Source: Clostridia bacterium (GTDB lineage: Bacteria; Bacillota; Clostridia; UMGS1840; HGM11507). From it: DNA of 64,000 bases. The notes beneath the pieces are model-generated. The model saw only the letters and a program-made list of their open reading frames with translations. It was not told the origin of the DNA and made no database searches. The DNA lies in assembly GCA_017554615.1 (NCBI GenBank), contig JAFZHY010000012.1, positions 1-64,000 on the forward strand, given 5' to 3'. This document shows, in pieces, positions 15,332 through 61,610 of the stretch; position 1 is the first letter of the stretch; each line of letters starts with the position of its first letter. A program made the position numbers and the translations under genes.

Positions 15332-15334
15332 TTT

Positions 15335-15437
15335 AGATATGCCGCTGACGGATTATTATGGAATTAACCATAATGCGGTATGTTGTATATGGAGCCGACC
15401 GTCTGGGCATTTCTTAGAAAAGAAATGCCCTTTTTTT
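15335..15437 (+). ncRNA. ZTP (pfl motif) riboswitch with terminator platform
   Basis: Senses ZTP/ZMP, alarmones that build up when 10-formyl-tetrahydrofolate is short. P1 is formed by 15337-15345 and 15375-15383. P2 is formed by ATTATGG (15355-15361) and CCATAAT (15368-15374), with the conserved-looking TGACGG between them. The conserved 3' part CCGACCGTCTGGGCA runs from 15395. The GGGCATTTCTT/AAGAAATGCCC terminator stem (15405-15430), followed by seven T, overlaps that conserved segment. Ligand binding should therefore block termination and turn pflB on. The gene it precedes, pflB, is the one that gave the motif its first name. Confidence 0.88.
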
Positions 15438-61400: not shown

Positions 61401-61610
61401 GAATAGATTTAACACAGTTAAATCTATTCAGCTAAATTCGCATTCTGCGAGCTAAATGTGCTAACACACGCTAAATTACTTTGTAGCTAAATTGACCCGT
61501 GGTCAGCTAATTGCGAATTTAATTTAGCTACTCCAAAGGAGTTATTTAGTTATGTAGCGAAACGGAATAATTTAGCTTTGAACTTTAGTTCAAGATTTAG
61601 TTAAAATGTT
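61401..61610. repeat. Array of GCTAAAT words and hairpins, reversing halfway
   Basis: Direct words GCTAAAT start at 61431, 61451, 61470 and 61486, with GCTAATT at 61506. Reverse words ATTTAGC or ATTTAGT start at 61522, 61544, 61570 and 61595. Hairpins of unrelated sequence fill most gaps: TGCGA/TCGCA, TGTG/CACA, TAC/GTA, TGACC/GGTCA, AATT/AATT, ACTCC/GGAGT and TTGAAC/GTTCAA. A 13-base-pair stem (GAATAGATTTAAC, loop ACA) opens the array at 61401-61429. No gene or known element explains it. Confidence 0.7.

Follow-up and report, generated by a model that had tools for sequence, protein, structure and literature searches.

The 64,000-nucleotide stretch of Clostridia DNA analysed here (the window) carries at positions 61401-61601 an array, hereafter called a comb, in which the seven-base word GCTAAAT alternates with small hairpins and then returns in inverted orientation. 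This array is probably a gene-less copy, resembling a miniature inverted-repeat transposable element (MITE), of a mobile element that in its complete version contains a single gene, that of S23 (PF05635), and in which a clade-specific heptad is set in inverted arrays; its spread would be driven by S23. S23 is the 23S rRNA-intervening-sequence protein, a four-helix bundle. In a minority of GCTAAAT copies, a PF05635 gene (E 3.5e-29) was found about 50 bp or less behind the comb on the same strand, and identical combs were found with and without S23, as expected of a MITE and its parent.

Within the window array, four exact forward words follow each other at steps of 20, 19 and 16 bases, a fifth differs by one base, and four inverted words follow at steps of 22, 26 and 25 bases. 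The parts are listed below.

61401-61429, + strand: opening 13-bp hairpin (hp0), GAATAGATTTAAC/GTTAAATCTATTC; its 5' arm overlaps a -10-like TAGAAT
61431-61437, + strand: forward heptad 1, GCTAAAT
61438-61450, + strand: hairpin 1, TCGCA-TTC-TGCGA
61451-61457, + strand: forward heptad 2, GCTAAAT
61458-61469, + strand: hairpin 2, GTGCTAACACAC, with one A.C mismatch
61470-61476, + strand: forward heptad 3, GCTAAAT
61477-61485, + strand: hairpin 3, TAC-TTT-GTA
61486-61492, + strand: forward heptad 4, GCTAAAT
61493-61505, + strand: hairpin 4, TGACC-CGT-GGTCA
61506-61512, + strand: degenerate forward heptad 5, GCTAATT
61513-61521, + strand: turn-point segment, GCGAATTTA, the reverse complement of heptad 1 plus the 5' arm of hairpin 1 (TAAATTCGC, 61433-61441)
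61522-61528, - strand: reverse heptad 1, ATTTAGC
61529-61543, + strand: hairpin 5, TACTCC-AAA-GGAGTT
61544-61550, - strand: reverse heptad 2, ATTTAGT
61551-61569, + strand: hairpin 6, TATGTAGCGAAACGGAATA, imperfect
61570-61576, - strand: reverse heptad 3, ATTTAGC
61577-61594, + strand: hairpin 7, TTTGAAC-TTTA-GTTCAAG
61595-61601, - strand: reverse heptad 4, ATTTAGT

An earlier reading of the window, made from its letters alone (the sequence-only reading), had described these words and steps correctly to the base, and dinucleotide shuffling of the 64-kb window gave no comparable comb in 200 rounds. Three stems of the forward half (hairpins 1, 3 and 4) are perfect; the mismatch of hairpin 2 is absent from the perfect sister copy GTGCTAACGCAC, and hairpin 6 is imperfect. 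The array folded far better than its shuffles both as RNA (z = -5.0) and as single-stranded DNA (ssDNA; z = -5.7). We agree that it is not a CRISPR, since the word is of 7 nt, the spacers are hairpins and the array reverses; neither long direct repeats nor non-self-complementary spacers are present. Nor is it a terminator, riboswitch, BOX or repetitive extragenic palindromic (REP) unit: no Rfam covariance model matched the comb at gathering score, and no REP-associated tyrosine transposase (RAYT) gene flanks it. An equivalent turn segment, the reverse complement of word 1 plus hairpin 1, recurs in several other word families (17 of 35 at p<0.01, with at least 7 words) and represents an alternative pairing.

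The proposal that the comb is a dispersed element was borne out. The window genome (G000; 1.28 Mb, 98.7% complete) holds a second GCTAAAT comb at C13:89420-89631, 82% identical to the window copy, and matches to the spaced word were detected in 21 of 60 related genomes, with many copies in which stems had changed yet were still paired. The control with the reversed pattern was near zero in the copy-rich genomes (54 matches in G001 and 51 in G004, against 0 in both), while a genome with just one match may owe it to chance. When genome contigs were scanned, the titles among the matches listed were overwhelmingly those of metagenome-assembled genomes (MAGs) of ruminant-gut and rumen Clostridia. 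The GCTAAAT comb was found in none of 2.9 million viral contigs, and carriage as phage cargo was rejected for want of any viral-contig comb match or phage match. The complete copies are all built alike: hp0 comes first, followed by W-hp1-W-hp2-W-hp3-W-hp4 and the degenerate fifth word, the turn GCGAATTTA, and W'-hp5-W'-hp6-W'-hp7-W' (W, word; W', inverted word; hp, hairpin). Thus hp0 belongs to the unit, the same hairpin being present at L012, L058, L068, L071 and L075. The forward half is expanded in some copies to at least 10 words (L157).

Insertion polymorphism was observed at an orthologous site made up of an RNase H gene, a terminator and a promoter, which, among five congeners, holds a comb in G004 and G007 and is empty in G005, G006 and G008. 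Combs sit intergenically, between protein or tRNA genes, and none of 73 lies inside an open reading frame (ORF). For 64 solo combs, the flanking genes, called as simple ORFs in Clostridia that are mostly MAGs, were arranged ++ in 27, +- in 17, -+ in 14 and -- in 6. Between codirectional genes the + strand therefore follows the coding direction 27:6 (binomial, two-sided, about 3e-4), a bias compatible with entry of the + strand into the lagging-strand template or with selection. Integron or attC cassettes were rejected, because the flanking genes are ordinary and of mixed orientation; an integrase target, suggested by the sequence-only reading, was not supported.

Combs of other words were also noticed. 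One family, with the word TCGATAT(G) (L042:2664-2834, L045:2218-2386, L050:2224-2395) and the cognate S23 clade LREETINFAIEISDICDN, occurs several times in the window genome (C2:144778, C6:20009, C18:30497, C27:12946) and as many solo copies in G001, often adjoining GCTAAAT combs. Further words (TAATGAAG; ATGAATTG in a viral contig; CGATAT variants) were seen at L151:3955-4125, L201:9594-9736, L080:56-248 and L117:5403-5574. A common tail, TTGGCATCTAAATTATACAGTCTTTATAT, with promoter-like character (TTGNCA-17-TTATAT), lies 3' of solo combs in L041, L042, L047, L050, L063 and L377, the words of these combs being of two kinds; tails of other types occur behind tRNA terminators (TTGCATCTATTATGAACGTGAAAGCC).

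The link to S23 was examined for all PF05635 genes in comb-bearing genomes and in 148 Clostridia genomes. In the GCTAAAT loci, each of the 12 S23 ORFs of the RSGTSIGAN type immediately follows a same-strand comb, and S23-linked combs lie 30-50 nt before the start codon. Most of the PF05635 genes examined are preceded by a comb, with differing words (besides GCTAAAT, TCGATAT, GCGATAT, ATGAATT, (A/G)TGAAAT, ATGATAT, TGATATT, TGATG, GTGAAG and GAATAAT). A strict caller detected a comb before 37 of 98 S23 genes, against 0 of 490 shuffles and 0 of 50 window genes; two of 85 control genes scored, both beside a comb already counted. When ten word classes were placed on the tree of the 98 S23 proteins, 9 changes were required, which is the theoretical minimum, against 21-27 in 1000 label shuffles. 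Every S23 clade thus uses a word of its own, so that protein and word are cognate. This variability of the word with the S23 clade was invisible from the window alone, and the interpretation given by the sequence-only reading is overall partly supported. No combs were found in the KVWQ/Avd-like clade among the S23 genes examined. The S23 of the window genome matches PDB 2rld (5 chains) over its length (E 2.9e-33), and a Xanthomonas homologue is a toroidal homopentamer (PMC4990558).

Other features of the S23 loci were recorded. Many S23-comb units start immediately downstream of the terminator of a tRNA or tmRNA gene (L204, L208, L218, L219, L228, L231, L250, L254, L264). Long direct repeats of terminator plus comb flank S23 in L229, L231, L254 and L265, as though the gene had been enclosed by a duplication of the whole unit. 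S23 also occurs in or between defence genes (L313, L322, L323, L324), in the orders HsdS-S23-HsdR, cas2-S23-cas1, helicase-S23-N6 methylase and DUF1156-S23-Swt1 HEPN. Invariant S23 residues (A1 alignment, numbering of the first sequence) are Q36, R39, S43, N47, E50, D59, K63, K69, E70, E73, Y76 and W77. Judged from the alignment, the charged ones are unusually many for a mere scaffold, and S23 may be catalytic. Structures of S23/four-helix-bundle proteins have been solved, but no function is known for them.

S23 leaders devoid of hairpins hold tandem heptads instead, for example ATTATTC-ATTTTTC-ATTATTC-ACTATTC-ATTATTC in L254. Periodicity exceeded 99% of the null at lag 7 in 17 of 32 such leaders, against 0-3 at each other lag from 3 to 12. 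The lag-7 signal was replicated in 12 of 14 plasmid S23 genes, mostly cyanobacterial, and in 15 of 18 on viral contigs, these being small samples and the viral one including two near-identical pairs; the heptads included TTAGTGA, GTCGGAA, AATTCGT, AATTCGC, ATTGACA, ATTGAAA and GATTGCG. Furthermore, the same array was found inverted after the stop codon of 12 of the 14 plasmid and 13 of the 18 viral-contig S23 genes, against 3 of 14 and 1 of 18 for the direct-orientation control, often beginning 0-10 nt past the stop. S23 lies between the two comb halves in some Clostridia (L220, L292), and both halves precede the gene in most Clostridial families. A common tail after S23, considered as proof of internal deletion, was dropped because the Clostridial S23 downstream sequences share none. 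The comb is thus an array of heptads in which a hairpin separates each from the next. Heptad spacing differs among families from 7 to about 26 nt, and each spacer is closed by a stem, implying that the heptads are equivalent only if read single-stranded. A gene-less inverted pair of the arrays seen at the Nostoc insertions (below), with its halves about 90 bp apart, was found in L384, and is the cyanobacterial counterpart of the solo comb of the window.

S23 units were also found at loci empty elsewhere. In Nostoc, the unit of plasmid L320 interrupts a cytosine methyltransferase gene of which the sister plasmids L381-L383 hold an intact version. The site occupied by the unit in L319 is empty in another plasmid of that strain, L378, the right flank being 100% and the left flank 92% identical. 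CAATTCG at the left junction of the L320 target equals one heptad of the element; as a single case, this is suggestive only.

The stems were compared among copies. In 557 hairpins of 98 distinct combs, we counted 2589 Watson-Crick pairs, 9 G.T and 5 A.C pairs, the mismatches being not clearly strand-skewed. The G.T share was 0.7% (280 distinct hairpin sequences), compared with 6.7% for the acceptor stems of tRNAs and 3.7% for terminator stems at these loci. Neither the G.U tolerance nor the strand asymmetry of a structural RNA was thus observed; stems that vary yet stay perfect, with no wobble steps, are expected of DNA palindromes and not of structural RNA. These findings argue for stems acting as DNA palindromes, kept by ssDNA hairpin selection or by arm-to-arm correction. 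The covariation anticipated by the sequence-only reading was found in that both stem sides change between copies, but the near absence of G.U speaks against a structural RNA. Its suggestion of an RNA scaffold ahead of the leucine-rich repeat (LRR) gene is not supported, given a G.U share about one tenth that of tRNA stems and the many solo copies between convergent genes, while its other suggestion, an ssDNA-type element, is plausible.

In the mechanism that we propose, the recognition unit would be a heptanucleotide repeated several times and then again in inverted orientation. Where the inverted arrays stand on both sides of S23 (plasmids, viral contigs and some Clostridia), they flank it like terminal inverted repeats. 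The S23 ring, a homopentamer in published structures, may bind heptads that the intervening hairpins present as single strands, most likely on the lagging-strand template; holding several heptads, it could help the element to anneal to, or be copied into, target DNA with exposed heptad-like sequence. S23 would supply no chemistry, host replication or repair enzymes being used, and solo combs would be moved in trans. The forward words of the window copy number five if the degenerate one is added to the four exact ones; a reading of one heptad per subunit is speculative, and counts vary.

Several points weigh against this mechanism or the mobile-element reading itself. Congruence of word and clade is also expected from plain co-inheritance of leader and gene, and alone proves no binding. 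No enzyme was linked to the element, reverse transcriptases and Y1 transposases being not consistently present in the genomes checked, and we know of no catalytic activity of S23. G015 and G006 carry combs but no cognate S23 above threshold, indicating that solo combs outlive their gene and that mobilisation in trans may be past rather than present. The targets in the Nostoc plasmids lost 328 bp (L320) and 188 bp (L319), with no evident target duplication, unlike a standard transposon. The 27:6 strand bias could reflect selection, and stem perfection could partly stem from quasipalindrome template switching instead of function.

Some of the evidence would suit a different role for the comb, that of a cis-acting RNA leader: heptads of the mRNA would be bound by S23 rings, in the way that TRAP binds trp leaders, for autoregulation, and the solo copies would form a regulon. 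The same-strand position shortly before the start codon, the comb directly behind a promoter -10 at several sites, the strong RNA fold of the window array and the 27:6 agreement with gene direction are all compatible with it. Such a leader is nevertheless unlikely in view of the scarcity of G.U, the 17 of 64 solo combs between convergent genes, the inverted arrays also after the S23 stop codon, and the presence or absence of gene-less copies at orthologous sites. We also think it quite unlikely that S23 is a passenger, its genes merely tolerating heptad arrays that grow by replication slippage and spread by recombination. Array copy number does vary, and heptad repeats are widespread with slippage proposed (as discussed in PMC4679880), but slippage makes neither inverted pairs nor hairpin-spaced heptads, and the arrays stand inverted on both sides of S23, sort with its clade and are rare before other genes.

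Known routes of mobility fare less well. Word, hairpin and inverted halves resemble REPINs, the hairpin-forming REP doublets moved by Y1 (RAYT) transposases, and single Y1 genes occur in G001 and G004; yet no Y1_Tnp was found in the window genome or G006, both comb-bearing, the Y1 genes of other genomes are not flanked by combs, no GTAG/GGAG foot is present, and the linked protein is S23, making this origin very improbable. Mobility by reverse transcription, with S23 acting like Avd, the accessory protein of diversity-generating retroelements (DGRs), is scarcely credible: PF05635 is homologous to Avd (PMC10053308), but the KVWQ/Avd-like clade is the very one that lacks combs, and a search for RVT_1 gave nothing in either the window genome or G001, the latter carrying about 17 combs with GCTAAAT and many with TCGATAT. 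For these two genomes, mobility based on reverse transcription is largely refuted.

The mobile element with S23 as its only gene shares features with several described systems. It has the short gene-less palindromic derivatives, inverted ends and many copies of MITEs, although its parent encodes only S23 and no known transposase, and no target duplication accompanies the two Nostoc insertions. With REPIN-RAYT systems it shares inverted word-plus-hairpin units, a cognate protein and the autonomous/non-autonomous logic, but it differs in having no Y1 transposase and no flanking RAYT gene, at least 4 words per half and a different protein fold. The element thus works like a MITE or REPIN with a cognate protein, yet is a member of neither. 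Avd belongs to the same protein superfamily and forms a ring of four-helix bundles; unlike in DGRs, no reverse transcriptase (RVT_1 search of G000 and G001) and no template or variable repeats were found, and the Avd-like PF05635 clade is without combs. Intervening sequences (IVSs) of 23S rRNA, which are cut out by RNase III, are small 'selfish' elements that likewise hold an S23 ORF (S23p; Coxiella, Leptospira, Xanthomonas). Combs lie not in the 23S rRNA gene but dispersed in intergenic DNA, and differ from IVSs in their inverted heptad arrays, inter-heptad hairpins and abundant gene-less copies. In the Coxiella IVS, tandem heptamers GACAGAT stand immediately before the S23p start (PMC4990558).

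Heptanucleotide repeats, namely the cyanobacterial short tandemly repeated repetitive (STRR) sequences, TAACTGA of Beggiatoaceae and Bacteroidetes, and GGGAATC of Xanthomonas, also have a 7-nt unit, dispersed intergenic location, sporadic phylogeny and no known mechanism (PMC4679880, PMC4692102). The S23 leaders have their exact period, at lag 7 only, while comb heptads are separated by hairpins; unlike those repeats, the arrays described here are linked to a cognate protein gene, and the Clostridial forms have hairpins and an inverted second half. In many bacterial genomes, no other long simple repeats are as abundant as intergenic heptanucleotides (Mrazek et al., cited in PMC4679880), and for tandem ones 'no mechanism is evident' (PMC4679880). 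In a literature search that left preprints and most subscription journals outside, no paper was found joining S23/PF05635 to heptad repeats beyond the Coxiella IVS. S23 would be the first candidate partner for seven-base repeats across bacteria, and the link gives both testable roles, as a protein-word code and a dispersal mechanism. It is possible, at somewhat less than an even chance, that there is a widespread class of bacterial mobile elements with a ring-forming S23 protein as the product of their sole gene and inverted clade-specific heptad arrays at their ends, S23 recognising single-stranded heptads and dispersing STRRs, Clostridial combs and rRNA IVSs without a conventional transposase; if true, the 23S rRNA intervening sequences would be one niche of a general element.

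Elsewhere in the window, a ZTP riboswitch (RF01750, 43.3 bits) was detected at 15334-15415 on the + strand, as the sole Rfam match.
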